From Hyaloscypha bicolor E (taxonomy: Eukaryota > Ascomycota > Leotiomycetes > Helotiales > Hyaloscyphaceae), in assembly GCF_002865645.1 (NCBI RefSeq), contig NW_020194552.1, forward strand, positions 620,001 through 684,000: a DNA stretch of 64,000 bases, in the 5' to 3' direction. Shown in pieces: positions 9,001 to 53,105 of the stretch. A program made the position numbers and the translations under genes. Each line of letters starts with the position of its first letter. Positions within the stretch are counted from its first letter, which is position 1. The notes below the pieces were generated by a model. The model had not been told where the DNA came from. It saw only the letters and a list, made by a program, of their open reading frames with translations, and did no database searches.

Positions 9001-11663
9001 TACGCGTTGCCTTTGCCTACCAGAAAGGTTTAGCCCCCGACTTCCTATCATGGTGTGGTCTCCATTGGGCAGCGCTGAAAGGTCATCGTCGAGGCAGCAT
9101 AGTCGGACAACTTGGTCGTACCAGCGTTGATCTTCCGGCGAGAAACCACAGATGGCCTCCTTGAGAGTTCCACTTGACAGCCAAGGTACCTGTTCACAGT
9201 AACCTATACGCTTCGAAGACACCGATATTGTTCCGCCAGCCGTAGGAATTTCACCCATGATTGCTCTCGCCAATGTTGTTTTGCCGCTCCCAACCGGTCC
9301 GGAGAAAATAACAATTGATCCCCTGTCAATAACAAGATTGATATCACTGAGAATAGGGGGCGTTGATGAAGTGTTCTGAATGGCCACATCCGCCATGCAA
9401 ATGGCTGGCGAAATCCTTTTGGCATCGTTGTCCACCCTCTTCAATATCAGTCGTTGATCACATCGGGGCGGCTGTAGGAGATACTGCTGGATTCGGTCAA
9501 AAGCTGCCAGTGAGCCCATTGCTTGTGGTACAATCGACATGATCATGTTGGCAGGGTGCGTCACCAATCCGAGCAGTGCGGTAGTTGTGAATGCGGTCTC
9601 GGTGTTAAGTTTGACCCCGTCCCAATGTGCCAAAACGACGAAGAGCACAAATGTAATAATTGGAGAAAAGATGCCAAGAGCATTTGCTACAAGAGTAAGC
9701 CAACGCGTGAGGCGCAAGGATCGCACAGATAACATACCACTTGCATTATGTTGAACTAGCTAAAGCAATATAGCTAGGGTCACGTGCTTGCAATGTAAAC
9801 CAAGTAAACGATACTGAATTAACTACTGTTCTATAGTGGTAAGTAGCCCGTATATATAGCCCTGAACCCCCTAAGTCACATGTACTAAATCCCTATGCCA
9901 GCTGAACCGATTACAGCTATACAGGGTATTCCAGCCGTACAGGGTATTCCAGCTATACAGGGTATTCCAGCTGGACAGGGTATTAAGCTAGTGCACAGCC
10001 CCATGGCGTTCGGTTCCAGGGCTTACTAAGCCTATTAGGGGCCTCAGGCCCCTAATTTCAACACATTATAAGCGACCATCATCCACCGCACCTTCCTGGC
10101 CATATCCAGCTCTTGAAGCCTCAGAGAATGAACCAAAGATTCCGTATATATTGTTACCCCTAACATCTTCAAGCTTTTCATTGAGGCAAGCATTGATGTG
10201 TTCATAGCAAGGCGTTTTTGCGTAGCCACGTTCCAGTTTCTTTGCTTATTCTGTAAGTTCCTCGCCAGGTACTGACTCATTCGTGAGCAGACTTTGATGG
10301 TTATCAGTAATTTGTTGAACGAACGGCGGATGACAACTCACAGAAGATGATCACAAGCGGAACCGGACAAATCCAACCGACCTCCCTAGCCAACATCAGT
10401 GTGCCCAATACGACCTCGATGACCTGCGCCCATGTTTCATGGAACATCTGCGCACTGTTGCCCACGCTCTCTGCATCGGTGCTTATGAGAGTCACGGCTC
10501 TTCCATCGTCGTAGCTGCCAGACTGCTGGCCCAAAGACTTGCAGTTGATAAGACCGACAACCGCGCCCCTGATCATGACTTTGAGCCGGTTCAGGCGGTG
10601 CTGATACAAGGCCTTGGAGGTCTGGTGTACCACTTAGTTCCCAAACGCACACAAGTCTGGAGAACTTACCGCTAAGCCAACATAGACAACAATGGCCATC
10701 AGGATCACCTTGTAGCCCAAATCCCAATCTCAATCTGATGACTTGCTCATGTGGCAAATGGCTGTGCTAATAAGCACCGGCTGAGCATAGCGAAAAGCAA
10801 TGAGAAATAGCCGTGGCAAAATTGGTGCGAGAAAATGCGAGAGCATGCTTTTGACCAAGGCTTCTGGCAATGTTATCTTCCTCTCCGGCTTAGCTGAACA
10901 AGAGTCTGTCAGTGGTGGCATGGTACCCAGAAGAATGACGGGGATTACCTCTCTGATCCCAAGCTTTCAGCGCCCGATGCCGCAGCAGCTTTGAAGAAAG
11001 CTTGTGGTCAATCGGTGGAAGGCTGCCTCCAGTGAGGATATCTCGGCTTCCTTTAGCCAGAATCGAATTGATCCACCAAAAGAAAGTCCTGCTCAAGACT
11101 CCAGCCAGCTGTTCTGGGGGCCATTGGCCATATTGACGTCGCAATATCCCCCCCTTTTCTCGGCTTTCGACCACCAGAATCAGAAATTTGATGCAAAGTT
11201 TGGCTATCACGCCTAAGGCAGCCGGGAAGGTCACATCTTGATACGCGGTTGTTCCCAGCTCAGCAGCGTCGCACGCCAGAGATGTGAGCAGGTAGACGAC
11301 TGCAAGATCTGATGGTTTGATAGACCGTGTGTGCTCCAGGAACAGCAATGGGCATAGACCTATATAAGATATGAAGGAGGTGAGGACAGATAAAAAATCA
11401 ATGTCAACTTGGGAGGTGGGCAATAGTGCTGTGATCAACACGATCGATTGTACCACTAGCAGTGCAAAGGCAATCGCCTATGCCAAGGTCAGTTTTCAAG
11501 TAAACAATACTGCCTTTTATGCACTACGTACTATTTTGATATCGCGGCGGTACTCTGGAACGACCTTGACTGTTTCTGTGTGTAGCTTTGATAAACGAAA
11601 CGGGAGCAGCAACAGAAATAAGGCGGAGACTGCAGTGGAAAGGAGTTGAAGCTTGAGGTACAT
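6011..11663 (-). pseudogene. ABCC-type (MRP-like) ABC transporter, disrupted by a solo LTR and a probable stop
   Basis: A multi-exon minus-strand gene with the full ABCC layout: TMD0 (11660-10900), first membrane domain (10900-9480), first nucleotide domain with Walker A GPVGSGKTT (about 9290), linker, second membrane domain (8450-7200), and second nucleotide domain with Walker A GRTGSGKST split by an intron (about 6860-6960), signature SVGQ and Walker B LLLDEATSSLD (about 6320). The first visible Met is at 11663; an upstream exon is possible. Introns checked by hand restore the expected frame at several sites. Two lesions affect the first membrane domain. A 315-bp solo LTR (9749-10063) sits inside an exon; removing it with one target-duplication copy rejoins the frame exactly. 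A TGA at 10732-10730 follows KSSD, and the homologous frame continues after it. The first signature motif reads LSGRQ instead of LSGGQ. Such pumps often export fungal peptides and toxins. This copy is probably non-functional. Confidence 0.85.
9749..10063. mobile_element. solo LTR, copy 1 (315 bp), inside the ABC transporter
   Basis: Begins TGTTGAACTAGC and ends TTTCAACA, so it has TG...CA ends with a 7-bp terminal inverted repeat. It is flanked by the 5-bp target duplication CATTA (9744-9748 and 10064-10068). It contains four tandem units of about 16 bp built on ACAGGGTATTC, a TATA-like CCGTATATATAG and a palindrome around GGGGCCTCAGGCCCC. A near-identical copy lies at 52787-53100. The ends and 5-bp duplication fit a solo LTR of Ty1/copia type; a short non-autonomous element (TRIM or MITE) is the alternative. 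Relative to copy 2 it shows several A-for-G and T-for-C differences, consistent with mild RIP. Confidence 0.85.
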
Positions 11664-22631: not shown

Positions 22632-25483
22632 CAGTCGGTCTGATCCAAAAGCAACAAAACGGTCGCTCTTTTACGCCCATAATAACTTTTTAACTATAAC
22701 CCTAATTAATTTATACTAAGTAATACGATTATAGAATAGAACCAGGCGAAAAATACCTATTAATTAGATTTTTAATATAATTTATAGTTCATTAATAATC
22801 GAGGCTTAAAGTATATAGACCCTTTTTATTTTTTTGATTTTTCCCTATATAAAACACAAAAATATTTACTTACTAAGGTCACGTAAGCCCGGGCTTTAGG
22901 GAAAGATCACGGCATCTTACTAGCCTTATTATTAATATAATAATAATAATTAAGCCCTATAAGCTCAAGTAAGCCTTCCTAAATACTAAATATAGCTTTT
23001 TCTAGTACTATATATATTATATATATAGTAGGTCCCTAATTATATAGGTTTTAAGCTAATTTTTGGCCGAACTAAATCTATAAACCTTACTTATTACTAA
23101 GCTATCTTTTTTTCCTTACTTTTATATATTATTTCATTTATCTATTACCTTTTTAGATATTATTCTATAGTGTTTTTGCTTCCGTATATATTAAGTAGCT
23201 TATTTAATACTTAATTCCTTCTAATATATATTTATCTAATAGAATATATAGTTATAAAACCTTTATATAGTCTTAATTAAATAAGCTTTAAGTATCTCTA
23301 TTATCTTAATCTTAGTATCTGGAAAGCTAGTTTTCTTTATTTAATAATATTAAGTTTTACTATATCTCTAGTATATTTTAATTAAATTAATTTCATAATA
23401 GAACTTTAGTAAAAATATAGCCTTATATTCCTAATCTATAATAAGCTCTTTAACTTGGGACTTCTTTTTAAAGAAGTCTTAGTAATTTAATAGTATATAA
23501 GCTAAATAATATATTTATTTAATAGTAGGAGGGTATTTAAGGAATATAATATACTTAGTATTCTTTAGATACTTAAATCTTAAGCCAGGAATATTATAAT
23601 CTTACTTAATAAGAATCTATTCTATATTCTTAGGCTCTTTTTCTCTATTTAAATTAAGTTACTAAAGGACTTAAATAGTATTCTATAACTTCGGAATTAT
23701 ATACTTTAGTAGAAAGTATATATCTTTTCTATAGGCCTTAATATTACTCTTTTTAATTCTCTCTAATTCCTTATTTATACTAAAGATATTTAGTATATCT
23801 TTATTATATAAAGTATATATAGAAGACTAATTAAATATTAGAATAACTATATAGTTTGGGTATTTCTATTCAAATATATTAAGTATTCTAGTAATTTATA
23901 CTAGTAGTTATTTTATATCTTACTAGGAGTTCCTATTTAAGCCTAAATATATAATTTAATAAGTATCTAAATTGAGATTATTCGGAATAAAAATGCCTTT
24001 ATTATTTAGTATTCTAATATGCTTCTTAGGGTCTATAAATTCAGAATTATAAATTAGCCTCTTTTTACTTTTTCCGGATATTTTTTACTAATTATCTACT
24101 AGCTAGAGGCTCTTTTTGTAATTAAATCCATAGAAATAGCTCTTATTATAGAAGTATATTATATATATCTAAACTTTAATTAGAAGTAAAGATTAAATTA
24201 TATACTATATACTAGCTTTATTCTTCTTATATTAAACTATATATAATAAAAGCTCTTTTATTAAAAGTAAAAATACCTTTTAATAATACTTAATTATATT
24301 AGGGTATTTATATCTATTTATATAAAGCCCTTTCTTAGTTTTATAGTAATAAAAGCCGAGCCTAGAAAGCTATAAGTAAACTATATTATAAGTAATAGGC
24401 TTTTCTATTATTAATAATAATTGAGGTAAAATCTCCTAATTAATAGTATTTAGGAAATTATTTAGTAATATTATTCCAAGCTCTTAATTAATTAACTAAG
24501 TATAGCAGGCTAAAAAAGTATTCTTATTATCTAGATAAAAGATACTTTTTTTTTTACTATTTCTAGTTTCTTGAGGAATACTATATTACTATTAATAGTA
24601 ATTAAATAGCCCCCTAATTTGCCGAGCTAGTATCTTTCTATTATTTAAGTAATATATTAATTCTTTTAAGTTAATATTATTCTAGCTTTAGAAGCTATTA
24701 GATATATTACCGGAATAAGTATAAGTTAGTAATTATATATAAAGTATATAGCTCTTTAATTTGAGTTAGCTTAATATTTATATTATTAAGGACTTCTTAG
24801 TAAGTTATTTATATATTTAGAGCTTTATTATCTCTATAAGCATTTCTAATAAGGGTATCTAAAAGCAGCTTATTTATTCTATTATTTTTATTTTTAAGCC
24901 TTTGCTTTTCTCTTAATTATATATTTCTAGAGATATTAATTAATCTCCTAATAATATTGAATTATAGCTTCTTTTATTTAAAAAATAATATAATTATAGG
25001 AGTCTTAAGCTTACTAGATTACTCTATAACTTGAGTATCTTTTGCCCTTTAATTATATATATATTTTTATTAAGTTCTTAATAGCTTTACTAATTTCTTT
25101 ATTAATTTGGGAATATATAAGCCTCTAAAAGCTAGAAATAATATTAGTATACTTATATTATAATATAAAAATAATAAAATAAAATAAGAAACTTATTAGC
25201 CTATTTTATAAGTCTTTACTCTTATTATATAAATATAGGCTTCTCTAAAATAATCGTCTTATTACTACTAATAATAAGCTTTTACTAAGCCTAAAAAAAA
25301 GTCAAATCTTTAAGCTTTACTTTATTATTTTGTTTAATATCTAATTTATTAGAATTATTTTCTATATTAGAGGATTTCCTATACTATTTATTAATAAATA
25401 CTTGAATTATAGCTTCTTTAGCTATAATAAGAACTATAATTAAATCAAGAGTTAAATTAGCTCTCTTGCATTTCTAAAGGCTT

Positions 25484-25688
25484 TATAATAGCTAGTATAA
25501 AGACATGATTTACTAAGGATAGGATATTAGAAATAGATATAAAATAAAGCTAAGCCGGAATTACTTAAATAAAATAATACTAAAGATTAAGTTATTCTCT
25601 CTATTTTATTTTATAGCTTAGTATTTTCTAATATATGAGATTCTTTAAACTTTAAGCCTTTAACTATTATATTAATTCTACTATTATA
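25484..25688 (+). repeat. gypsy 5' LTR
   Basis: 205 bp, starting TATAATAGCTAGTATAA and ending CTATTATA. Paired with 33292-33496, with target duplication GGCTT directly upstream. It carries more C-to-T type changes than the right LTR. Confidence 0.85.
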
Positions 25689-28600
25689 TAATACTAAGCT
25701 TATTTAACTCGGCCTATAGAGGTAATATAATACTACCGGTAAAGAACCCGTATTTATTCTTAGAAAGTAAAGATAAAATACTATTTTTAATATTTAATAA
25801 CTTCCTCGAACTATAAAGAACTAAAGAGTTTAACTAGAAGTATAATATCCTCTATAACCTAGTTAATCTCGGAGCCTGACTCTTAACTAAAACAGATAAT
25901 ATTTCTTTTCTAGTAGTTAGTCTTCTACTAATATAAAAGAAGAAAGATATTATTCTTTATAATCCGGTTAATCTCGGAGCCTGACTTTTAACTAGAGTAA
26001 ATAATATTCCCTTAATACTAATAAAGATAAAAGAACCGGCCCTTTTCCCTAGTATAAGAAGAATTAGTAGTAGTTTATTAATTTAAAATAAGAAAAAATA
26101 ATAGTTAGTTTTAGTCTACTAATTTAAAACTAGATAAGACAATAATTAGTTATAGTTTACTAATATTAAATAAGAAGAACTTACTTAGTACTTACTTCTA
26201 TAGCTAATACTCTTTCTAAAGCTACTATAAATAGCCCGGGGCCAAGTATTATTACTATAGGTATATTAGATAAGAGGCCCTAATATAATAAAATAAAGAA
26301 GCCGGACTTTAATATTATAAACCTATATTACCGGGAAAGCTATTATAATACTATTCCGGAAAAAGATATTAAGAAATAGCTAGCTAACTTGGAACTTAAA
26401 ATTAGTATAAATATTCCGAAAATAAATAAGGCTTAGTAAAGATTACTTATACGAGATAATTTTATTAATAAATACTATCTTATAGCTAATAAATAAGCGA
26501 AATACTATTAGAAATTCCACTTATATATTAATTAACTTATTAAGAAAGTTAATAAACTAGAGGTAATTACTAGTTAACTTCATATAAGAGAAAGACTAAT
26601 ATAAAAAGAAGTAATAAAATAGAGATCTAAATAGGCAAATATTTAGAAATATTATAGATCCCTATTAGGAGAACTATTTAGGGACTAATACTAAGGCTCT
26701 CTTTTGCTTTTAGTTTATAGTAATTAATTATAGCTTATTAGAATTAAGGATCCTGCTTTATTTATAAATAAGAATAATTACTAGATTAATAATTAGATAT
26801 TTAATATAAGAAATAAACTAATATAGAACTTCTCTGAATTTAATAATAAACTACTAAAAATTACTTATATAATATAACTAGTTACTAAAGATACTTGTAA
26901 CTTTATTTATAATTAACTAGAACCTGGATTAGTTAGATAGATCTTAACTATTAAATAGATCTTTAAGATCCTCTAGTAAGCTTATAATAAAAGCAAAGAA
27001 ATAGAGTACTAGGAAATAAAAGAGATATACTAGTACCTGAAATAAAGAAATAAGCTATTCCTAGTATTCTAAATAGAGTTTATTTACTTAATAATAAACT
27101 AGAGAAGTTACTAGATAACTAATATAATAATTTAATAAATAAAATAAATCTCGAGCTACTTAAGAGCTTAGGTAATAAGAAGTTCAATGCTTTTAGGGAC
27201 CTTACTAAGTAGTATATGAAATAAGAGAATAGGCTTCTCTTAATTAAAAATTAGTAATTTCAGGAGAAATAACTAGTATAAACTACTTGCTATTAAATAT
27301 TATCTCGGGCTAGAAAGCCTACCGGAATTCAAGGAGCTATAGTAATCCTATATCTAGTAAATTAATCTTAGTAGCTAGTATTCTTATAACTAAAGAAGGT
27401 AGTTTGCCGAGAATTTGAAAAGAGACTAGACTAACCAGAGGGTTTTTATTATTATAGCTATAGAAAGCCTAGATATATGAAAAGTACCTGTTCTAACTTT
27501 AATAAGATTATATCTATTAAAGAGAATTATTTAGAGAGAGCTAATAATTTAGGGGTAAATAACGAGAATACCGACTTCTATTTACTATTTAATAAGAAGT
27601 ATAATATTAATAAGTCGGGAAAAGTCTAGCTCTAGGTATAAAGATAGCTTTTCTAAAGTAAGAACTTTACTAAGAACCCGTAAATCTCATTTAGCTAATT
27701 AGTAGGAACTAGTTCCTTATTAATTATTAAGTATATTAGAAAGGCAAAACTATAACTTTCTAGTATTTAGTAAATACTAAAGTAAATATATATACTTTAA
27801 TTAACTAAAAGCATATTTATTCCTTAATAAAAGTATTATAAATGCCCTTATATAAACTTAAAACCCTTGTTTCCTTATAAAGTTTTAATAAATAACCTAG
27901 TAAAGCTATTTAATATATAGCTATTATAGATCTAGCTATTAATTAGTATTTCTAAACTTAATAATACCTGTTTATTACTAACCTCGGCTCTTATAATATA
28001 ATTCTAGAAAGGAAATAGCTAGTAAAGTATAATATCTTATTAGATTATTAATAGAATTAATTCTATTAGCTAAAGAACTATAAGACAAATTAGCCAGACC
28101 TTATTTAGAAAATCCAATATTTTAATAAGAAATATTAAAAAGATAACTACTCTAAAGATATTCTAACTAGGATCCTAAAAGAAACTAGTAAAACTAGACC
28201 CGAGAAATAAAAGAATATATTTCTTATTTTTCTATAAGATCTTCCTATAAGAAAAGCCAAATATTAGGTAAGAAAGAAAAGGCTAGATCCTAATACTCTT
28301 AAAATAGTTAAGTTACTAGATTATTTCTGCTATTTTATTAGAGTAGCTATTTTTTAATTAAGTATTAAAGACCCCGGTAACTTGGTCGGATTAGTTACTA
28401 TTAATAAAATTAAATATATACTTGAAAAACAGGATTATAAACTAAAGAGATATCTACTATTATTTATAGTAATTAGATAACTAATACTATAGCCCACCGG
28501 ATACTATATTTAAACTAGTAACCTAATATACTTCCTGAATATAGATAAATCTAATATCTTTAGTAATATATTATTTTTTAATCCTAAAGAACTTTAAAAG

Positions 28601-31600
28601 CTCCGGATATCTTTTCCTATATAGCTATATAATATAACTAGAGTATTCTCTAAGAAAGCAGTAAATGAGCTTTCCTAGTCTTAATTCTTTAATTATAAGC
28701 TCTGTTTTAATAGACCAGATCTCTTAATAAAAATAGCCTACTTTTATAAGATAAGCTCTAGTAAACTCGAAAAAATAAGAAAGTATCTTATTAAGAACCT
28801 AAAAAAGAATTTTATTAAGTTATCTGAATTCCCCTTTTTATTACTAGTCTTATTTATTAAAAAGAAAAACGGTAGCCTATAATTTTATATTAATTATTAA
28901 TAGCTAAATGCTATAATAAAAAAGAACTACTATTTCCTGCCGCTTATTACCGAGACTCTTAACTAATTAGCCAAATTATTAGTATTTACTAAATTAGATA
29001 TTTAATATGCTTTTAATTAAATTTATATAGAACTAGCTTCTATAATATGGGCAGCTTTTAGGACGAGATATAAATTCTTTAAACTAGCAGTTTTATTATT
29101 TAGACTTTATAATAGTCTAATAATCTTCTAGTAATATATTAATATTATCCTAATAAATTATTTAGATGACTTTTACTTGGCCTATATTAATAATATACTA
29201 ATCTTTTCCAAGAATAAGAAGAAGTATTAATAATATATTAAAATAGTCTTATAGAAGCTTTAGAATACCGGATTATAAATTAATATCTATAAATATAAAT
29301 TTGAAGTCTTTAAAATAATATTCTTAGGATTTGTTATCTTAAATTAAGGTATATAGGTAGACCCTATTAAAACCTCTATTATCTAAAACTAGTACTAATT
29401 TATAATAAAAAGGGAAATATAGTTATTTTTGGGCTTCTATAATTTCTATTATAGGTTTATTTAAGCCTATAGATATATTTCCTGCTCCCTAAACTATCTA
29501 ACTAAAAAGGATATTCTATTAAAGTTTATACTTAATAAAACCTAGCTAGATGCCTTTAATTAGTTTAAAGATTTGCTTCTCTTTATTCCTATATTTCTCT
29601 ATTTTAAATATAATAGGGAAACCCGCCTAGAAACCGACTATTTGGATCTAGCTATTACGGGTATACTTTTTTAAAAAAGCCCAGAGAATAAATAATAGTA
29701 TCCGGTCTTATTCTATTTTAAAGCTTTTTAAGAAGCCAAAAGCTACTATAAAGTTTATAATAAGGAACTTCTTATTATTATCTAAGAACTCCGGAAATAG
29801 TAAATAGAACTAATTAGTTTACCTAATTTTCTAATTATTACTAACTATAAAGCTCTCGAGTATTTTAGTACTAAGAAGCTCTTAAATAAATAATAAATCT
29901 AATAAATAGGTTTCCTATTATAATTCTATTACTAGATTACCTATTAGCCAGATAAAGATAATACTATTACTAATATCTTATTCCGAAAGAATAAACTTAT
30001 ATTAACTTAGAAATAGGCTAAAGAAGCCAAAAGAACTAGATAAGTTATTCTATTAGACCTAATTCTCGCTTTTACTAAAATAATAGATATAGCTTATATT
30101 CTTACTAAGGTAAAAGAAATAGATAAGCTATTTATTATAGTTAAAGTTCTATAAGCTAATTAGATAGACCTAGCCCTAGAGAATAAATATAGAAAAGTTC
30201 GGGAAAATACGGAACTATAGGAAATATTAAATAGCTATATATTTCGTAATAAAAGACTTATTATATTAGATAAATATAATAATCTATAAACTAGGCTTCT
30301 ATAATAAATTTATAATATAATAATTACTATATATTCTAGTTAAAATAAGATAAAAATCCTAGTTTAGAGACTTTACTAGTAGCCTATTCTCTCTATAGAT
30401 ATTAACTGCTTTATGGCAAATTACTATAAATATTAAAGGTCTTATAAGCCAAGAAATAAAATACTAGACCTATTATACCTATTACCGGTTCTCTTAAAAA
30501 TATGAGATAATTTGTTTATAGACTTCTATATCTCTAGTTCTATAAATAAAAAATGTAATAATATATTTGTTATAGTTAATTAATTATCTAAATAATATAT
30601 AAGCCTACTAATAACTAAGAATACTATAGCCAGGATTATTACTAGCCTATTCTACTATTATATCTAGTAATTCCGAAGGTCTTTCTTTACTATTACAAGT
30701 AATTAAGGACCCTAATTTATTTTAGACTTTATAAATAAACTATTAAGATTAACTAGAACTAAGCTAAAGCTCTTAATTATAGAATATATCTAAACTAATA
30801 AATAAACAGAAATTATTAACCAGATTATTAATACCCGACTTTATTTCTTTATTAATTATTTCTAGGATAATTAGGCAGATTTATTTCTAGTACTTAATAT
30901 TATAGGTACTACCTGTCTATATAAATTAACTAGCTTATTTTCCTTAATAATTAACTATAAATATAAACCCAGGCTAAACTTTAACTAGATATTACTAATA
31001 ATAGAGTTTAAAATACTAAGAGAGAAACTTAATTAGGAGAAAGTATAATAGTAGGCTAAGAGAATTAATACTACTATTAATTATACCCGAGAATATATAG
31101 TAGTAGCTTAGGAATATTAAGCTAAGTAAGCTAATAAGAAATAGTAAGAACCGAACTTTAGTTCAGGAAATATAGTCTATATAATTAAAAAGATATAGAA
31201 AACGGACTATTTATCTAATAAATTAGACTACTTTCTTACTAGACTATTTAAGATTAATAAAATAGTCGACTATTTATATTAATTAGATCTTCCTCTATTA
31301 TATAGGATTTGGCTAATTTTCTATATAAATAGACTTTATAAGGATTTTACTAATCTACTATCTAGCCAGACTAATAAAGAGCCTAGTTCTACTAAAGTTA
31401 ATAGTAAACTTAAATAGGAAGTCGAAAAGATTCTCTTTTTCAAGGTACTTTATAGTAAGCTTTATTATAAGATTAAATAAAAAGAATAGGATATAGATAA
31501 TAAATAATACCTTATATTAAACTTTAAAAACTTAGTACTTAAACTATATAAATTCTATAAATAGAACCCTAGTAAAGCAGGACCTTCTATCTAGCTAAAT

Positions 31601-32213
31601 AAATAGATTTGGTATACTAAAAAAGACGAGTTTAATAAAGACTACCCAGATAATAATAAACCTTAATAATAAGGCCTCTATAATTAGAGAAAGAAAAGAA
31701 AAATCTAGATATTTCCCGGGTTTTATCTAAACTCTAATATATTTCCTTTATTCTACTATATTAGTACCTATTTTCTTTTCCAGAAATCTAGGTAAAATAT
31801 CTTTTTTTATTATATTAGATTATACTTTACTATCTAGACAAATTATAAAAAAAAAAAGTAAATTCTTAAAGCTAAGCTAAAAGTAAATACTTACTTATAT
31901 TAGTTCGAAATATTATTAAAAATTAAGGGAAATCTTCCTAATTACTTTAATCTTTATAACCTTAATTATTTATATTACTATTATTATTTTAATAGAACTA
32001 TTAATAAAGATGAAATAAATAAGAAATCCCGGTAATATATTATCTATAGCTAGACTAAATAAGGCTACTTACCAGATTCTAAATAACTTAAGTAATAGTA
32101 GTAATATCTCAAGTTTAGTAACTATTATTATTATTAATATAATTACTAGCTAAACTATTTTTATAAACGAAAATAGTAATTTCCTTACTTAAGAATAGGT
32201 TAATATATAGAAT

Positions 32214-32606
32214 ATGGCCCGTATTACTTTTAAGAATATACCTAAAATTACTATAGAAAATATCTTAGTAAAATATTCTAAGAATAATAAAATAAAGGTT
32301 TTAGTTACTAGTAATAATAAGTCTAATAGTCTAATAAGCGGAATAGATAGTACTAATAAGGGCTACCTTATTAATCTTATAGAGCCAAATACTAAGAAAG
32401 TCAAAAAGAGTAAGGCTAGCTTATTTAAGAAATATAAGGCATTAGATAATAGCAAGAATTCTAATAATAAAAAGACTAAGAATAGAAAGACTTCTAGTAA
32501 TAAAGAAGACTCTAACTATAATAAAGGTAGCCAAACTAGTATTAAGATACCTATTATAACCAGAAGACATATAATACTAAATAGTAGTTATTATATAAAG
32601 TGCTAG
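32214..32606 (+). CDS. lysine-rich frame within the gypsy 3' region, function unknown
   Basis: A frame of 130 residues without stops lies between the chromodomain and the 3' LTR. It is rich in Lys, Asn and Ser. It may be the surviving part of an extra reading frame after pol, because the following 600 bases also read on the plus strand as degenerate coding sequence with few stops (for example ITLTKKKDKQAIILKPVL near 32920). No family is recognised. Openness may be chance given the base composition, so this is weak. Confidence 0.25.
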   Translation: MARITFKNIPKITIENILVKYSKNNKIKVLVTSNNKSNSLISGIDSTNKGYLINLIEPNTKKVKKSKASLFKKYKALDNSKNSNNKKTKNRKTSSNKEDSNYNKGSQTSIKIPIITRRHIILNSSYYIKC

Positions 32607-33291
32607 TCTAAAATTAAGAGCTAGCAAATAATCCTAAAAGCCGAATTAAAGAAGTAATACCTTATAAATATTAATGAATTAGTATATAATATTATTTAAG
32701 AAATCGGAAAACTCTTTAGAAGCTCCTATAAAACCAAAATCATATAGCTCAAGGCCCGGGGATTTAATAATAAAGTAGCTTAAGTGGCTGCCCTTAATAT
32801 ATAAGTCTCTATTATAGAGGAATAACTTGAGAATATATATATATTAAGCTCGAGAAGGCCCAGAAGTTAATTAAGTAGCTCAGAAATAGTATAATTAAGC
32901 CAAATATTATTACCCTAACTAAGAAGAAAGATAAGCAAGCTATTATATTAAAACCTGTATTAATAAATAGACTTGATCTACTACTTCTATTTGAAGACCG
33001 CCCGATAATAAAAGTCCTAATATTAGCCATGGCCTATATAGTACTCCCAGACTATATTATTAATATAGGTATAGGCATAATACGAGTAATAGATACTAAG
33101 GACTAGCTGGAATATACTAGGAACTAGGTTATTCTGGTAGAGTCAAGACTATGCTTTAATTATAAGTAAGCTATAGGAATTAGACGGAATAGGGTTAATG
33201 GCTATTATTTCCTCTTTTTTCTTTTCTATATTATGGCTAAATAATTTCCTAAATAAGGGCATTTAGACTTCTTTTTAGGGAGGGGGGGTAA

Positions 33292-33496
33292 TATAATAAC
33301 TAGTATAAGGGTATAATCTACTAAGGACAGGATATTAGAAACAGGTATAAAACGAAGCTAAGCCGGAATTACTTAGACGGAATAATACTAAAGGTCGAGG
33401 CATCCTTCCTACTTTATTCTATAGCTTAGTATTTTCTAATATATGAGATTCTTTGAACTTTGAGCCTTTGACTATTATATTAATCCCGCTATTACA
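33292..33496 (+). repeat. gypsy 3' LTR
   Basis: 205 bp, starting TATAATAACTAGTATAA and ending GCTATTACA. Preceded by a G-rich polypurine tract and followed by target duplication GGCTT at 33497-33501. Confidence 0.85.
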
Positions 33497-33941
33497 GGCT
33501 TATAAAGGTAGCTATTAGAAGTATATAAAAGGGGTACTGAATTGGGTTTGTAATTATTAAGATATTAATATAATTATAGAAGAGCGGTTAATTAAGGGGG
33601 GCAGTTACGTAATAACTAAAGTAAAAAAACGACTATATAAAACGCAAAAATATTTGCTTATTTAATTATGTGTATTATAACTTCCTTAATAATAAAGATA
33701 TTATAATTTTGAGAACATAGAATTAATTCCTATAGTATATAGTATAGTTTTAATTAATATGATTTATATTAATTAGTATTATGGTGGTTTTTATTTTTTT
33801 TTGTCGCTTTTGGATCGGACCGACTGTACTCAAAAATTCCTGATGTGACCACAAACTGTCTTGAGTCCTTCCCACGCCCTACCAACCGTTCCGCAGCTAT
33901 TGAATCGCACTTGCCCTACAGAAAAGACCGAAAGCAACACT

Positions 33942-34253
33942 CTAGCTATCGCTGTTGCCGAGTTCACCAAGCTGCTCTCGCTTGTCTGTGTTGTTGCCGA
34001 GCTCACCAAGCTGCTCTCGCTTGTCTGTGTTGTTGCCGAGCTCACCAAGTTGCTCTCGCTTGTCCGTATTGTTGCCGAGCTCGCCAAGCTGCGCCCGCTT
34101 GTCGCTGTTGCCAAGTTCACCAAGCTGCTCCCGAGTCTCGTCTAATCCTTCGTTAGTAATATTCATACCAATGCTTCTATCAGACTCACAGAGGATAGGA
34201 GAAGCCATAGCTCCAACAACCAGGAGCGGTAGAATAGCTTGGAAGAACTTCAT
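33942..34253 (-). CDS. secreted repeat precursor peptide with Kex2 sites (candidate RiPP precursor)
   Basis: One exon, 103 residues. Residues 1-19 form a signal peptide (basic-hydrophobic start MKFFQAILPLLVV, small residues AMAS at the likely cleavage site). A short leader follows with one NIT sequon. Residues about 41-103 are five repeats: EQLGELGNSDKR, AQLGELGNNTDKR, EQLGELGNNTDKR twice, and EQLGELGNSDS at the end. Each internal unit ends in Lys-Arg, the cleavage site of the Golgi protease Kex2. This layout is that of Kex2-processed repeat proteins, which include dikaritin RiPP precursors such as those of ustiloxin and phomopsin. The divergent neighbour at 34821 is a UstYa-like oxidase, which supports a RiPP role. 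Against this, the units have no Tyr, Phe or Trp. Alternatives are a Rep1-like surface peptide or a pheromone-like signal. Transposon X1 ends 115 bp past the stop codon. Confidence 0.75.
   Translation of the reverse strand: MKFFQAILPLLVVGAMASPILCESDRSIGMNITNEGLDETREQLGELGNSDKRAQLGELGNNTDKREQLGELGNNTDKREQLGELGNNTDKREQLGELGNSDS
33953..34115 (-). repeat. 39-bp tandem repeat coding the peptide units
   Basis: About four copies of a 39-bp unit, with the end units shortened by 3 bp. Copies differ at only a few positions, which indicates recent duplication or gene conversion. Read on the minus strand it encodes the 13-residue precursor units. Confidence 0.85.
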
Positions 34254-34820
34254 TTTGGGCAAATGATGGCGAAGGTTCTGGGTAGTTAGAATAAGGTATA
34301 AGCTGAAGGGCTGTTGGATGAATTGCCCAAGCGACGAATGTATGGTTTGTACAGATGGATAGATAAGTTGTAGGGACACTGCAATGCACATATATAGCAT
34401 GTCTTGATCTGCCATGGTCTCGGAATCTTGTTTGTATGTCTACCAAACTATTCTGCACTGATGACCATGGGAAGCACGAACGGTTGCGCATGCAGGTCTG
34501 GCCTTTCGTGATTAACTTGATGCCATGTAATCATCTCAGTTTGAGGCATGCTTACAACTCTCCACTTTATGGTGCAAGGTCATCTTGCATACTTACATGC
34601 ATGAACTTTGACCAACCCCACTAATAAGACCATTACGGCTACGACCTTCCTATTTCGACCAGTGTGCTCCAAGCTCTTGGAACAAGCGCCGGCTTCCTGC
34701 TAGGTAAATGTCTAGTTAATAATTTTCTTGCGGTTATTCAGATCGTCAGATTTTGAATCTGATGTCCCCTCCCCTAGGCAAAAACTCCGGCCTCGAACCA
34801 CTTTCTCAGCTTTTTGGAGA
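34254..34820. promoter_or_regulatory. shared divergent promoter of precursor and UstYa-like gene
   Basis: 567 bases separate the two ATGs, which face away from each other. A TATA-like CTATATATG on the minus strand (about 34388-34398) lies about 135 bp upstream of the precursor start. No other gene is seen. Divergent placement suggests co-regulation; this is inference from layout. Confidence 0.5.
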
Positions 34821-36020
34821 ATGTCTTCTAAGGAGACAGTTGCAATGGATATTCGATCCCCTTCGTTTGAGTATGAAGACTATGACTCGGATACTCAGAA
34901 CCTTCTTAGTCACGAAAGGACTACGAAGCAACACAAACAGCAGCAGAAGAGAAACTGGGCTTTCCTGGCTGTGAATACCTTCGTTTTAGTGCTGAACATT
35001 GGACTGCTTCTCATGATTAGCACCCCCAGAGCAGTTACCATGGCTGAAGACACTCCATCTGTTCGGTTGCCACACGCAGGTCAGTCCATCAGCCGTGGTG
35101 AATTTTTATACTCGTGATGCACAAAGTACCTGAGCAAATAACTTACATCTATTACGCAGATTGGATAGCACCTGCAGTGCAGTTACAACTTCAAACCTAT
35201 GATGACAAGTTTGAAATCCATGGTCGATACCGAGGGAAACCTCGGCCAGAATTGGAGGCCGCTTGGGCTGATTACGTGAGGAGAAAGTCCACCTTGATCT
35301 AATTTCCTAGCCATTTCAGCTTTAATACTTCAACAGATTACACTCTTCGCGTGCCAAAACCTGGCTGGACGAAAGCAACCCCGAACGCCATCCTCACAGA
35401 ATTCCAAGATGAACAAGGCGGAATCATGGGAACTTTCAGCTACATACATAACATACATTGCTTGGTTTGTCAAATTATGCTCATACCGACCTACAAGCAT
35501 CATTCTACTTACACGATTATAGAAAACTATCCGACAGTGGATGCTCCCTGAATACTATCCTGAAACAAGAGCACAATTCCCGCCGACCCCAGAGACACCA
35601 ATTCCTCGACACATTGGTAAGACCTTCGAAGTTGCATCCTTGATTACTCATGCTAACACACCAAATGCAGATCATTGCATCGACATGTACGACGAGATTC
35701 TCTGTATCCAACCATGGTCCAGAATGTTTGCTAATCTTCCAGTAACTAGGCTTCGCCAATCAGAGCTCTGCCACGCTGATATGACGCTTCTGATCTTTGA
35801 GTGGCATGAGGACGATCCGCACCCTGTGAACATTCACCACGCCCCGCACATTTGCGCCAACCCGGACAAGCTGGAGAGGTTCTTGGAGGAACATACAGTT
35901 CCTCCTATTGGCCCCATCCTTAAACATCCGTGGACCGGTACATATAACCCTGCTATCTATCTTGTATTTTGGAAAAAGCTAACAACATTCGCAGGTGAGA
36001 CTCCTTGGCCGTTTGAATAG
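34821..36020 (+). CDS. UstYa/DUF3328-like membrane-anchored oxidase
   Basis: Proposed exons 34821-35079, 35160-35275, 35337-35464, 35523-35616, 35671-35686 and 35750-36020, about 294 residues. A cytosolic N terminus is followed by one membrane segment (WAFLAVNTFVLVLNIGLLLM, about residues 51-70). The luminal domain carries the two hallmark motifs HNIHC, then about 35 residues further HIDHC, followed by MLRQSELCHADMTL. Those paired HxxHC motifs define UstYa proteins, which cyclise dikaritin peptides and related fungal products. All splice junctions keep phase except exon 2 to 3, where the GT-AG pair gives a one-base mismatch, so there is either an indel or an unusual splice. It lies head-to-head with the repeat precursor, its likely substrate. 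Confidence 0.8.
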
Positions 36021-37500: not shown

Positions 37501-38600
37501 TATGGCTAAGGTAATAGTAAGAGAGGAGATAACTTAAATTAAAAAAAAACCATTACTATAATATTAATAATAGTTAATTAATATATTATTTTATATTATA
37601 TTATATTATTTTATTTTATTTTATTTTATTTTATTTTATTTTATTTTATTTTATTTTATTTTATTTTATTTTATTTTATTTTATTTTATTTTATTTTATT
37701 TTATTTTATTTTATTTTATTTTATTTATTTTATTTTATTTTATTTTATTTTATTTTATTTTATTTTATTTTATTTTATTTTATTTTATTTTATTTTATTT
37801 TATTTTATTTTATTTTATAAAGCATTATTAATATAAGTCTTATTAATTTTAATATTTTGTAATATATATTTCTTAAAAGATATAATAAAAGAAGAATATT
37901 ATATTAATTAATAAAAACAAAAATTGAAATTGCTTATTTTATAAAGTATATATTAAAGCTTGCTTATTCTTAGTATCTTACTAAATACTTTTATATATAA
38001 TTCCTTCTTAAGACTAATATAAGAATTAAGAAAGCTATATATTTTTAATTATTTAATTACTATTTAATATTAGAGATTTATAAAATATTATTATTTAAAT
38101 ACGTTTCCTTAAATAATTAATTAAATTACAATTTAATAAATAACTAAAATATATATTAATATAATAATATAAAATATAAAACTAATAAAAAGTTCAATAT
38201 TTCGATTTGAATTAATAAGATATACTTTATTATAATATATTTATTAATAAATAAAATACTTTAATTTATATAAAAAAAGATATAAAGATAAATAAATTAA
38301 ACTTTGAATTTTTTAATAAATAATAATTATAATATAAAAACTATAAATATAATTATTTATAAAACTTATAAAGATATTAGTTATATATTATATTTTAAAA
38401 AGTCATTATATAGGTAATAATATAATATATAAGAAATGAAATATTATTTTTAAAAAGAAAACTTATATAATTAAAAATTTAAGAATTAAAAAAATTAAGA
38501 TAAGTAAAACAATTATTTCTTTATATGGGTACTCTTTAAGAGCAGTCCTATAAGAATACTAATATATATTCAGAAGAGATCTAATACTTTATCAAGTACA
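37501..38600. other. AT-rich, RIP-type gene-free block
   Basis: Very AT-rich sequence with no readable protein similarity, around a long microsatellite. It is probably a degraded transposon between the peptide island and the dioxygenase gene. Confidence 0.5.
37600..37817. repeat. (TTTTA)n microsatellite
   Basis: About 43 units of the pentamer ATTTT in an almost pure run, with one shortened unit (TTTATTTA) near 37720. It lies inside the AT-rich block. Confidence 0.95.
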
Positions 38601-39000: not shown

Positions 39001-39228
39001 TCAGATTGAGAGTCATGCGTGAGGCTCAGGCTCGCATTTGAGAAGCTACGCAACGATTGCTCCGAAAAGAACTGGTAAGAACTTAGACCAAAGCAGTTGC
39101 AGCCCTGCATGGTCTGCAGCAACGGGTATTCTCTATTTCAATGGACTCAAATCGGTGTACATACTATTATCCAGTCGATTCTGAGGAGATGGGCCTTCTT
39201 TCATTGCCAAACTATAGCTGCGTGCATC

Positions 39229-42200
39229 ATGAAGGTTCTCCAAAGAAAAGAACAGAGTTCTCCTGGCCAGGCTCCGGGGATCTTTCCCAGCCAATTCGAT
39301 AATCTCGTGCCTGTCACTCTCTCTTTGACAACCACAGACGAAGAGCGCAACGCTTTGCTCGCGTCTATTGTCTCGAAATCTGCGAATCCATCCATCAGTG
39401 TCCAGGCGAATGAGTACCGCAACGGTCCAGACCCCACATCCAAGGCATCTTTTCGGAAGTCGTTGCTTAAAGGATTCCGGAAAGGTTGGCAAGATGTAGC
39501 TACCGAAGCTCGATTTGTCAGACTAGTCGAAGTGCTACAGAGCGATGGATGCGCTGTCTTCGCCGGACTGGTTGACGCTGCCTCTTTTCAGCAGCTCATC
39601 GACGATTTCTCGACCATCATGAACAGTTCAGGAAGCCATGCTTTCTTGCATTCTTTTGCCCACCTCACTGAGCACCCGGACTTTCTCAAGAACCCAATCT
39701 ACAACAACGCCATGATACACCCTCGCTCATTGCTATGATGGCATACGCAATGGGTGGCCCGGTTAGGATGACCGATGCCCGCGGCAAAGACACGGAACCA
39801 ATTTCGGTGAATGCGCAAGACAATATGCTTCATATTGACAACACCCCCTTCCGAGAAGAATACAAGATCCTGCTCGGTTGGGAAAGGGGACAAGTGAAAG
39901 GTCCCACTGGTCAGAATTTCACCTTCTTGCCAGGAACGCACAAAGGCAACCGCCCCATCAGAGTGGACGAGCACTCCCAGCACTGGTCAACCGAGAACGA
40001 CAGCCTGTTTATTACTGACGAGAGCATCGAGAGTGTGTTTGCATTCCAAGGCGACATCACTGGACACGACCCCAAAGTCATTGAAGTACAGTCGGTCCGA
40101 TCCAAAAGCGACAAAAAAAAATAAAAACCACCATAATACTAATTAATATAAATCATATTAATTAAAACTATACTATATACTATAGGAATTAATTCTATGT
40201 TCTCAAAATTATAATATCTTTATTATTAAGAAAGTTATAATATACGTAATTAAGCGAGCAAATATTTTTGCATTTTATATAGTTGTTTTTTTACTTTGGT
40301 TGTCACGTGACTACCCCCCTTAGTTAACTGCTCTTCTATAATTATATTAATATCTTAATAATTACAAACCTAATTTAGTACCCCTTTTATATACTTCTAA
40401 TAGCTATCTCTATAAGCCTTTAGAAACGCAAGCGAGCTAATTCGACTCTTGATTTAATTATAGTTCTCACTATAGCTAAAGAAGCTATAATCCAAGTATC
40501 TATTAATGAATGGTATGGGAAACCCTCTAATATAGAGGACAATTCTAATAAATTGGATATTAAACAAAATAATGAAGTAAAGCTTAAAGATTTAACTCTC
40601 TTTTGGGCTTAGTAAAAGCTTATTATTAGTAGTAATAAGATAATTATTTTAGAGAAGCCTATATTTGCATAGCAAGAGTAAAGACTTATAGAATAGGCTA
40701 GTAAGTTTCTTATCTTATTTTATTATTTTTATATTATAATATAAGTATACTAATATTATTTCTAGCTTCTAGAGGCTTATATATTCCCAAATTAATAAAG
40801 GAATTAGTAAAGCTATTAAGAACTTAATAAAAATATATATATAATTAGAGGACAAAAGATACTCAAGTTATAGAATAATCTAGTAGGCTTAAGACCCCTA
40901 TAATTATACTATTTTTTAAATAAAAGAAGCTATAATTTGATATTATTAGGAGATTAATTAATATCTCTAGGAATATATAATTAAGAGAAAAGCAAAGGCT
41001 TAAAAATAAAGATAATAGAATAAATAAGCTACTTTTGGATACTTTTATTAGAAATACTTACAGAAATAATAAAGCTCTAGATATATGAATAACTTACTAA
41101 GAAGTCCTTAATAATATAAATATTAAGCTAGCTTAAACTAAAGAGCTATATACTCTATATATAATTACTAACTTATACTTACTTCGGTAATATACCTAAT
41201 AGCTTTAAAAGCTAGGGTAATATTAACTTGGAAAAATTAATATATTGCTTTTAGTAGCTTCTAGTAATTACTACTTAAATAATAGAAAGATACTAGCTTG
41301 GCAAATTAGGGAACTATTTAATTACTATTAATAGTGGCATAGTATTCCCCAAGAAACTAGAGATAGTAAAAGAGAAAGTACTTCTTATCTAGATAATAAG
41401 AATATTTTTTTAGCCTACTATACTTAGTTAATTAATTAAGAGCTTGGAATAATATTACTAAATAATTTCCTAAATACTATTAATTAGGAGATTTTACCTC
41501 AATTATTATTAATAATAGAAAAGCCTATTACTTGCAGTATAGCTTACTTATAGCTTCCTAGGCTCGGCTTTTATTACTATAAAACTAAGAAAGGGCTTTA
41601 TATAAATAGATATAAATACCCTAATATAATTAAGTATTATTAAGAGGTATTTTTACCCTTAATAAAGAAGCTTTTATTATATATAGTTTAATATAAGAAG
41701 AATAAAGCTAGTATATAATATATAATTCAATTTTTACTTCTAATTAGAGTTTAGGTATATATAATATACTTTTATAATAAGAGCTATTTCTATGGATTTG
41801 ACTATAAAAAGAGCCTCTGGCTAGTAGATAATTAGTAAAAAATGCCCGGAAAGAGTAAAGGGAGGCTAATTTATAATTCTGAATTTATAGGCCCTAAGGG
41901 GCATATTAGGATACTAAATAATAAAGGCATTTTTATCCCGGATAATTTTAATTTAAATACCTATTAAATTATATATCCAGGCTTAAATAGGGACCCCTAG
42001 TAGAATATAAAATAGCTACTAATATAGATTACTAGGATATTTAATATATTTAAATAGAAGCACCCAAACTATATAGCTATTCTAATATTTAATTAGTCTT
42101 CTATATATGCTTTATATAGCAAAGATATACTAAATGCCTTTAGTATAAATAAGGGATTAAGGAGGATTAAAAAGAGTAATATTAAAGCCTATAGAAGAAA

Positions 42201-44274
42201 TATGTACTTTCTATTAGAGTATATAATTCCGGGATTATAGGGCACTATTTAAGTCCTTTAGTAACTTAATTTAAATAGAGAAAGAAAGTCTAAGAATATA
42301 GAATAAATTCTTATTAAGCGAGATTATAATATCCCTGGCTTAAGATTTAAGTATCCAAAGAATACTAAGTATACTATATCCCTTGAATATCCTCCCGCTA
42401 TTAAATAAACATACTATTTAGCTCGTATACTATCGAATTACTAAGACTTCTTTAAAAAGAAGTCCTAAGTTAAAGAGCTTATTATAAATCGGGAATATAA
42501 GGCTATATTTTTACTAAAGTTCTACTATAAAATCAATCTAATTAAGATATACTAGGGATATAGTAAAACTCGATATTATTAAGTAAAGAAGACTAGCTTT
42601 CCAGATACCAAGATTAAGGTAGTAGAGATATTTAAAGCTTATTTAATTAAGATTATACAGAGGTTTTATAACCGTATATTCCGCTAGATAGATATATATT
42701 AGAAGAAATTAAGTATTAAACAAGCTACTTGGTATATACGGAAATAAAAACGCTATAGAATAATATCTAAAAAGGTAATAAATAAATGGGATAATATGCA
42801 AAAATAAGGGAAAAAAGGTAGCTAAGCAATAAGTAAGGTTTATAGATTTAGTTCGGCCAAAAATTAGCTTAAAACCTATATAATTAGGGACCTACTATAT
42901 ATATAATATATATAGTACTAGAAAAAGCTATATTTAGTATTTAGGAAGGCTTACTTGAGCTTATAGGGCTTAATTATTATTATTATATTAATAATAAGGC
43001 TAGTGAGATGCCGTAATCTCCCCCTAAAGCCCGGGCTTACGTAACCTTAGCGAGTAAATATTTTTGCATTTTATATAGAGAAAAATCAAAAAAGTATAAA
43101 GGGTCCGTATACTTTAAGCCTCGATTATTAATAAACTACAAATTATATTAAAAATCTAATTAATAGGTATTTTTCGCCTAGTTCTATTCTATAATCGCAT
43201 TACTTAGTATAAATTAATTAAGGTTGTGGTTAAAAAGTTATTATGGGCGTAAAAGAGCGACCGTTTTGTCGCTTTTGGATCGGACCGACTGTAGAGTACC
43301 CTGAGCAGCCCATCACTGTCCTTTTCAGCGCAGGCTCTCTGGTCCATCACCGCTACCGGAACAGCGGCGGAAACACTCGAAGCTGTGTCATCGCCGCGTT
43401 CCATCTTGCCTCGGACCACCCGGGAGCGCTGGTACACTCAGAAGTCGCTGGGAGTCCACAGTCCGTGGCAGAAATCCTGGTTGGTCACCAAGATGGGACC
43501 GAAGTTGAGGCCTTTTGCTCCTTGATCAGTCTTAAAGCCTCAGCTATCGAATCCAAAATCTCTGAAATTCTCAACAAGGATCACCAATCTATCTTGGTCG
43601 ACACGGGTAATTTGACGCTCTCTGGCGAGAAGTTTGATCGCTGGAGGGAGACCGTTATCAATGCCCCGTCGGCAACAAGACTCAAGTTCGAAGGGAGTAA
43701 TTACATCTCCTTTGCAAACAATTCCATCTCGCGCGATCTCCTGGTGAAGAAGCTCGCTGCTGCGATGGCGTACGACAAGCATGGGCTCTTGGATCTGATC
43801 ATATACATGGATGGCCACGAGGAGATCCGGAAACCGGCCCGCAAAAGCGTCTGGACCATGTCGAGGGAGAAGATTGCACAGATCCTTGCCGCCTGGATAC
43901 CAGCCGTGGAGGGATATAAGTTTACCACTGCCGACGTACAGAAGCCAGCGCTTCTGCGGCATAAGGCTGACAAGGTCGCCCGTCTGCTCCGAGAAAGCTT
44001 TCCGACGGTCGACTTTGCCAGTGCAGGAAGCAGCAAGGAGGAACAACAACTGACTTCGGCGCACCAACTTATTGACGACCTGGGGGAGTCAATTACGCGA
44101 TGCGAGAAGCTGGAGACGTATATCACGACTAACCTTTTCCTTTTCCTAATTATTGATCAGATCATCCCGCTTCTCGATTGGACTTTGAGACAAAGGGTCA
44201 TTGGAACTTGTGCGGTTTTCCTGAGGGCTTATATAGCCTGCGTACTGGTGGTTGAAAACAACCAAGGTATCTGA
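39229..44274 (+). pseudogene. phytanoyl-CoA dioxygenase-like gene split by transposon X2
   Basis: The 5' part (39229-40088) begins MKVLQRK and carries the metal-binding His-x-Asp in NMLHIDNTPF (about 39830), then FLPGTHKGNR. The 3' part resumes at 43292 with EYPEQPIT and holds the distal His and Arg in SLVHHRYR and RSCVIAAFHL. Removing X2 with one TA rejoins Val-Glu-Val to Glu-Tyr-Pro in perfect frame, so X2 separates the two halves of the Fe(II)/2-oxoglutarate active site. A one-base frameshift is also present near 39717-39735, between NNAMIH and the in-frame continuation IAMMAYAMGG. Family members hydroxylate lipids and many fungal secondary metabolites. The gene lies beside the precursor/UstYa island and could have served as a tailoring enzyme. 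It is now broken. The C-terminal 150 residues have no recognised domain. Confidence 0.82.
40089..43291 (+). mobile_element. DNA transposon X2 (3.2 kb, TA-flanked)
   Basis: Inverted ends CAGTCGGTCCGATCCAAAAG (left) and its complement (right), about 28 bp, are each flanked by TA (40087-40088 and 43292-43293). It is an inverted copy of X1. Reading the plus strand through RIP stops (about 41550-42830) gives a recognisable fungal DDE transposase: GLYINRYKYPNI, later FLLKFYYKINLIKIYQGYSK where the family has a FHCELNPIEMYWG-type motif, then RQIDIYQ and AIWYIRKQKR. Together with the TA duplication this points to the Tc1/mariner/IS630 group; the exact family is not certain. Stops make it non-autonomous. 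It carries the empty target site (about 40410-40425) of the gypsy element found in X1. Confidence 0.85.
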
Positions 44275-52614: not shown

Positions 52615-52786
52615 AACTCTCTTTATCGAGCCTGTCTTCTTGCTGGGGTATTGATGAAATCCTTGGACGACGTAGTTCAAGGCTATATGAATTAAAGCAA
52701 CTTGTTCTCGCCAGGACGTAGTGATAGACTGATCTAATGTTGTCAAACGAATAAATGTGGATTGAGAAATATCGGCGGCACCTTTG

Positions 52787-53100
52787 TGTTGAACTAGCTA
52801 AGTAATAAAGCTAGGGTCACGTGCTTGCAATGTAAACCAAGTAAACGATACTGAATTGACTGCTGTTCTACAGTGGTAAGTAGCCCGTATATATAGCCCT
52901 GAACCCCCTAAGTCACATGTACTAAATCCCTATGCCAGCTGAACCGATTACAGCTATACAGGGTATTCCAGCCGTACAGGGTATTCCAGCTATACAGGGT
53001 ATTCCAGCTGGACAGGGTATTAAGCTAGTGCACAGCCCCATGGCGTTCGGTTCCAGGGCTTACTAAGCCTATTAGGGGCCTCAGGCCCCTAATTTCAACA
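52787..53100. mobile_element. solo LTR, copy 2 (314 bp)
   Basis: Nearly identical to 9749-10063, with the same TGTTGAAC...TTTCAACA ends and internal ACAGGGTATTC repeats. It is flanked by its own target duplication CTTTG (52782-52786 and 53101-53105). Different duplications at the two sites show independent insertions. Confidence 0.85.
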
Positions 53101-53105
53101 CTTTG

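Follow-up and report, generated by a model that had tools for sequence, protein, structure and literature searches.

A putative Kex2-processed repeat precursor with an aromatic-free core beside UstYa-type genes in Hyaloscypha bicolor

Background

Is a short open reading frame (ORF) of five near-identical repeats, lying beside UstYa-type genes in Hyaloscypha bicolor, the precursor of a modified secreted peptide, and which chemistry could such enzymes perform on repeats devoid of aromatic residues? Dikaritins are RiPPs made from Kex2-processed repeat precursors (KEPs) and cyclised by homologues of UstYa (PMC10512285). According to the text of a 2020 survey, genes with the DUF3328 domain are found near 22% of 7,878 KEP genes, their count peaking at the next position; Tyr occurs in 65.6% of the repeats of DUF3328-linked KEPs, and the known ether formation uses the Tyr ring (PMC7329392). 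About a third of the DUF3328-linked repeats in the same survey are thus free of Tyr (PMC7329392). The locus described here is a short and simple case, with a single-exon precursor, one core and a compact, open UstYa-type gene, which would allow a direct test of UstYa-type action on a purely aliphatic ribosomal peptide.

Cyclochlorotine is synthesized by an NRPS and is not a RiPP. CctR, the DUF3328 protein that has it as substrate, uses O2 to hydroxylate C(sp3)-H bonds and is described as a binuclear copper enzyme (PMC12435403). Gene inactivations in the phomopsin pathway have linked the DUF3328 proteins PhomYc, PhomYd and PhomYe to the formation of dehydro-Ile, dehydro-Asp and dehydro-Pro (PMC10880069).

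Results and Discussion

A probable repeat precursor with a conserved aliphatic core

The stretch analysed here, referred to as the window, comprises 64,000 nucleotides of contig NW_020194552.1. An initial annotation had reported in it an ORF for a Kex2-processed repeat peptide, and this ORF is indeed present:

33942..34253, minus strand: precursor gene, single-exon ORF including the stop codon, 103 aa

The protein starts with MKFFQAILPLLVVGAMASP, continues with a spacer carrying one NIT sequon and with five units, and ends at the stop codon. A hydrophobic stretch in the hydropathy profile and an AxA-type end at residues 15-17, recognized by eye, suggest a putative signal peptide of about residues 1-17. 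The units are, in order:

unit 1: EQLGELGNSDKR
unit 2: AQLGELGNNTDKR
unit 3: EQLGELGNNTDKR
unit 4: EQLGELGNNTDKR
unit 5: EQLGELGNSDS

They are 10-11 residues long, and four of them are followed by Lys-Arg, the Lys standing at residues 52, 65, 78 and 91. The array was also detected by Tandem Repeats Finder (33953-34130, period 39, 4.6 copies, 88% matches, score 265). The pattern EQLGELGN(N)TD, which the initial annotation had given for all five units with Lys-Arg between them, holds for the number of units, but not in every detail: only units 2-4 end with NNTD, while the tails of units 1 and 5 are NSD and NSDS, unit 2 begins with Ala instead of Glu, the Lys-Arg sites number four, and unit 1 is preceded by Thr-Arg instead of Lys-Arg. 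A KEP is defined by at least three near-identical units with Kex2 sites between them; here there are five, and the repeats, the Lys-Arg sites and the signal-like start support the proposal that the ORF is likely a Kex2-processed precursor of the RiPP type. What is unusual within this known kind is that the 62 residues of the units include no Tyr, Trp, Phe or His. The calculated [M+H]+ of the unmodified peptides is 1189.533 for EQLGELGNNTD, 1131.528 for AQLGELGNNTD, 1061.475 for EQLGELGNSD and 1148.507 for EQLGELGNSDS.

The units carry the mark of coding constraint. The 24-base core varies at five sites among its five copies, four of these sites being synonymous, and when the same transitions and transversions were dealt at random, four or more synonymous sites out of five were obtained in 2% of draws (chance 0.02). 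In pairwise comparisons of the units, pS amounts to 0.33 and pN to 0.022 (pN/pS 0.066). This is the pattern of a peptide that is conserved while its codons drift, seen in a small sample.

The precursor is single-copy in its own genome (82.0 Mb in 76 contigs). Relatives were searched for among 5.77 billion proteins at E up to 10, once with the sequence and once with an alignment of three; both searches returned the same two proteins. P0001 (90 aa, from JGI) is a four-unit version, 98-99% identical to the precursor, so the number of repeats varies. P0002 (56 aa) has in common with the precursor the signal peptide and one EQLGELG, after which it diverges. As both searches are limited to proteins 0.55-1.75 times as long as the query, precursors with many more units would escape them. 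All five units and both relatives contain QLGELG, whereas the tails differ (NSD, NNTD, NND, RS); hence QLGELG is likely the core, perhaps together with the preceding Glu or Ala and the following Asn. This core is absent from the main texts of the literature searched, in agreement with the initial annotation, which recognized no published precursor with it. Within this literature the core sequence is new; the kind of system, a KEP with a DUF3328 neighbour, is already known and common.

A secretion signal followed by Kex2 sites is also the layout of mating-pheromone precursors, and the units fall in the range of 9-24 residues given for alpha-type pheromones (PMC6339444). However, the units begin with EQ or AQ directly after Lys-Arg or Thr-Arg, with no X-Ala or X-Pro dipeptides of the Ste13 type at any unit start, they lack aromatic residues, and in the survey's account almost all pheromone-type KEPs, with three exceptions, are without DUF3328 neighbours (PMC7329392). 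A pheromone-like precursor thus appears to us very improbable.

Two UstYa-type genes within 3 kb of the precursor

The region next to the precursor comprises the following features:

34254..34820, no strand: stretch of 567 bp between divergent start codons, candidate shared promoter
34821..36020, plus strand: UstYa1, UstYa-family (PF11807) gene with several exons
35270..35341, plus strand: odd junction of UstYa1 that starts and ends with GATTAC and contains an in-frame TAA
36395..37093, minus strand: UstYa2, one open exon, 233 aa, UstYa-type protein

The start codons of UstYa1 and of the precursor are 567 bp apart and divergent, and from these positions the intervening stretch is a candidate promoter common to both genes. 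Two exon pieces of UstYa1 score 25.8 and 32.9 bits against PF11807 (cut-off 25), which confirms the UstYa-type gene announced at 34821-36020; a third piece reaches 14.5 bits and the first has no match. The gene encodes an N-terminal hydrophobic helix, an HNIHC motif and an HIDHC motif that spans a canonical intron. Four of its junctions were tested, and canonical introns that keep the frame are available at three. At 35270-35341 the frame is not kept by any canonical intron (GT-AG or GC-AG, 35-400 bases) between the flanking conserved blocks, and three paralogues from the same genome (L035, L047 and L049) read through the matching site without an intron. A non-canonical intron, a true lesion or an assembly error are possible explanations, and UstYa1 may thus be broken and non-functional.

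UstYa2, situated 2.1 kb from the precursor, remains under the PF11807 cut-off of 25 (16.9 bits, E 0.0058). It exhibits, however, the features that define the UstYa family, namely a predicted membrane helix (residues 34-60) and an HxxHC(x)nHxxHC arrangement, with HLAHC at 166 and HTMHC at 195. A protein search identified 52 relatives, some of them partial, from P0003 at 88% identity down to 30%; those at about 50-70% come from Neopestalotiopsis, Pestalotiopsis, Coniochaeta, Cytospora, Colletotrichum, Trichoderma, Fusarium and others. When UstYa2 was aligned with 27 of the 52, there was no variation at H166, C170, H195 and C199 and hardly any at H169 and H198. None of the 52 (P0003-P0054) carries a precomputed Pfam label, and the relatives at 50-70% are "hypothetical proteins" where they have a public name; the group may accordingly escape Pfam-based mining. 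Seven weaker paralogues (28-34% identity) are encoded elsewhere in the genome.

The AlphaFold model of UstYa2 (28 sequences, mean pLDDT 82.1, pTM 0.65) comprises a disordered start, the helix 34-60 and then a domain, in which the helices 163-181 and 193-209 each open with HxxHC. CctR has the same helix and the same HxxHC(x)nHxxHC motif on two helices (PMC12435403), and it is this likeness of layout from which we infer copper binding; UstYa2 is thus a predicted copper enzyme, below the Pfam cut-off and known from its sequence and model.

UstYa genes and KEP-like loci elsewhere in the genome

Exon-level matches to PF11807 number 60 in the genome, two of them in the window and the other 58 in 18 places. 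The sequence within 1 kb of these 58 matches makes up only 0.1% of the genome, and that within 5 kb 0.29%. We scanned 17 of the 18 places (all but one on contig C75) for KEP-like ORFs. By a simple rule that combines repeated words with dibasic residues, ORFs were flagged at five of the 17; by a stricter rule that requires Lys/Arg-Arg, only the place on C76 was flagged besides the window. One flagged ORF, at C5:1426 kb, was dropped after inspection by eye, as it has neither a signal-like start nor units bounded by dibasic residues. Four loci remain, namely C76, whose units contain Tyr, Trp and Cys, C5:447 kb, with Tyr, and finally C22 and C45, both with His-His repeats; the latter two are less certain, and the frame on C45 is without a signal-like start. 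Among the five loci including that in the window, only the window's units hold neither an aromatic residue nor His. The loci on C76 and C5 resemble ours in having a KEP-like ORF beside UstYa genes and differ from it in the Tyr of their units, to which C76 adds Trp and Cys.

On C76 the KEP-like ORF (96890-97399, L005/L032) consists of three long units, and the contig carries a large UstYa array at 90-103 kb, where UstYa-type matches are numerous over about 13 kb. The KEP-like ORF on C5 (447487-447831; L041 7487-7831) is short and has two ILYIKRTGYGDK units near UstYa genes.

The genome also encodes a kexin-type P-domain, which scores 60.5 bits (cut-off 21) over positions 1-57 of the 86 of the profile and contains one in-frame TAA, as an intron could give.

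Comparison with known systems and the proposed chemistry

In its signal peptide, its repeats divided by dibasic residues and its adjoining UstYa-family gene, the locus is like the KEPs with DUF3328 neighbours described by Umemura 2020 (PMC7329392) and Le Marquer 2019 (PMC6339444). The seven abundant types of DUF3328-linked KEPs treated in the former are marked by Tyr, His-His or Trp (PMC7329392), none of which occurs in the QLGELG units. With the dikaritins ustiloxin, phomopsin, asperipin-2a and victorin it has in common a KEP-type precursor and a UstYa homologue (PMC10512285).

The ustiloxin, phomopsin and asperipin type, however, requires a Tyr in the core for the ether, and the units of the precursor have none. 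The clusters for ustiloxin and phomopsin contain tyrosinase, methyltransferase and peptidase genes. None of the ORFs and exon pieces that were scanned (ten at 33.9-46.4 kb and a second set of ten, three of which are in essence the same) gave a Pfam match to any of these three. The dikaritin architecture put forward in the initial annotation therefore stands as far as a KEP-type precursor with a UstYa gene is concerned, but the absence of Tyr, the want of matches to the three enzymes in the pieces scanned and the perhaps broken state of the nearest UstYa gene leave the assignment to dikaritins unestablished; the locus is dikaritin-like in gene layout only and is not classed as a dikaritin.

The absence of Tyr from the units excludes the Tyr-ether reaction on them, and as PhomYc, PhomYd and PhomYe desaturate and CctR hydroxylates aliphatic carbons, aliphatic oxidation becomes the likelier chemistry. 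The best explanation, to which we give an even chance, is a Kex2-processed precursor whose aliphatic QLGELG core would be oxidised by the adjoining predicted UstYa (DUF3328) copper enzymes. The signal peptide would route the precursor into the secretory pathway, where the UstYa-type enzymes, membrane-bound with a luminal domain, would bind two coppers via HxxHC(x)nHxxHC. UstYa2, together with UstYa1 if it is functional, would attack C-H bonds in Leu, Asp or Asn, either adding a hydroxyl group (+16 Da) or desaturating the residue (-2 Da), and might form a cross-link as well. Cleavage by Kex2 behind Lys-Arg and removal of the basic residues by Kex1 would then release peptides of about 7-11 residues for secretion.

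This oxidation of an aliphatic core is favoured by the repeat architecture and the coding constraint, by the presence of two UstYa-family genes within 3 kb of the precursor in a genome of which so small a fraction is near UstYa genes, by the CctR-like layout of the UstYa2 model, by the kexin-type P-domain, by the precedents of PhomYc, PhomYd and PhomYe, and by the 22% of KEPs that are DUF3328-linked. Against it count the aromatic-free units, given the prevalence of Tyr in DUF3328-linked repeats, as well as the frame problem of UstYa1 and the sub-threshold score of UstYa2. As UstYa2 has 52 relatives and the precursor, in a length-limited search, two, a conserved pairing of the two genes is at most a conjecture. 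A bolder form of the proposal, according to which the locus is an all-aliphatic fungal RiPP, with Leu, Asp or Asn of QLGELG modified by UstYa-family copper enzymes, and UstYa2, with its unlabelled relatives in many ascomycetes, marks a hidden family of such pathways, is tentative and rather doubtful.

We rank as the main rival a linear, nearly unmodified peptide, followed by a decaying cluster. In the former case the KEP would yield linear peptides with at most N-terminal pyroglutamate or N-glycans on NNT, acting as a signal, a defence peptide or an effector, and the UstYa genes would serve otherwise. Some peptides from mushroom KEPs are known to be linear and minimally modified, with pyroglutamate on some recombinant ones (PMC9769878); the lack of aromatic residues, the NNT sequon in three of the five units and the possible loss of UstYa1 function point in the same direction. 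However, the precursor is divergent to UstYa1 and only 2.1 kb from UstYa2, and the sequon is missing from units 1 and 5, from units 1 and 4 of P0001 and from the single visible unit of P0002. We consider the linear peptide rather unlikely.

Transposon insertions and the integrity of the locus

The surroundings of the precursor contain two copies of a transposon, here called element X:

22632..33826, minus strand: second copy of element X, inverted relative to the other, flanked by TA on either side and interrupted by a nested element
39079..40088, plus strand: interrupted gene, left part, two overlapping ORFs, broken by element X
40089..43291, plus strand: element X (3,203 bp), bounded by identical 28-bp inverted repeats, with TA at 40087-40088 and 43292-43293
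43294..44274, plus strand: interrupted gene, right part, in the same frame as the left once element X and one TA are removed

The element nested in the second copy has direct repeats of about 200 bp (25484-25686 and 33292-33494). The stop codon of the precursor is 115 bp from this second copy. The flanks (14-33 kb and 40-43 kb) are rich in AT, with high TpA/ApT and low (CpA+TpG)/(ApC+GpT), and look like targets of repeat-induced point mutation (RIP); they enclose an island of about 6 kb that carries genes, with the precursor at its left edge. The two parts of the interrupted gene that were used as queries each occur once in the genome, and Pfam gave no credible match to any part (the best, DUF2894 at E 0.073 and UBA_2 at E 0.35, are below the cut-off); an HxD-type stretch would be the sole reason to call the product oxygenase-like.

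With a transposon inserted in the ORF next to UstYa2, any cluster here may be decaying, which also counts against the proposed oxidation. The peptide would then have been modified formerly, with UstYa1 broken, the third gene split and no product made in this strain. In line with such decay are the frame problem of UstYa1, the insertion of element X at a TA within the ORF, the RIP-like AT-rich flanks on both sides and the proximity of element X to the precursor. Yet the precursor and UstYa2 are fully open, the core of the precursor is constrained, the four-unit version at 98-99% identity exists elsewhere, and the third ORF is only a putative member of the pathway. Decay is, in our estimate, unlikely, and oxidation of the aliphatic core remains the preferred reading.

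Further repeats in and around the window

A genome search with element X gave 86 rows. Long matches account for 40 places, to which 11 of the rows add further pieces, and the remaining 35 rows cover nothing but the 27-29-bp ends; with 40 of 178 candidates scored, the element is present in at least 40 places. The two copies in the window, of RIP-like composition, flank the island in opposite orientations, and the stretch C24:2972088-2984857 contains two UstYa2-like ORFs separated by another copy. A 237-bp (TATTT)n array with 97% matches is located at 37582-37818, between UstYa2 and the interrupted gene. Two stretches of about 319 bp, 97.8% identical and with an 18-bp tandem repeat, occur at 9746-10064 and 52784-53101. 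Each of them sits 5' of a minus-strand ORF, and the two genes are unrelated; one encodes an ABC transporter and the other is presumably a HET-like gene. The repeated stretch is perhaps a small mobile or introner-like element.
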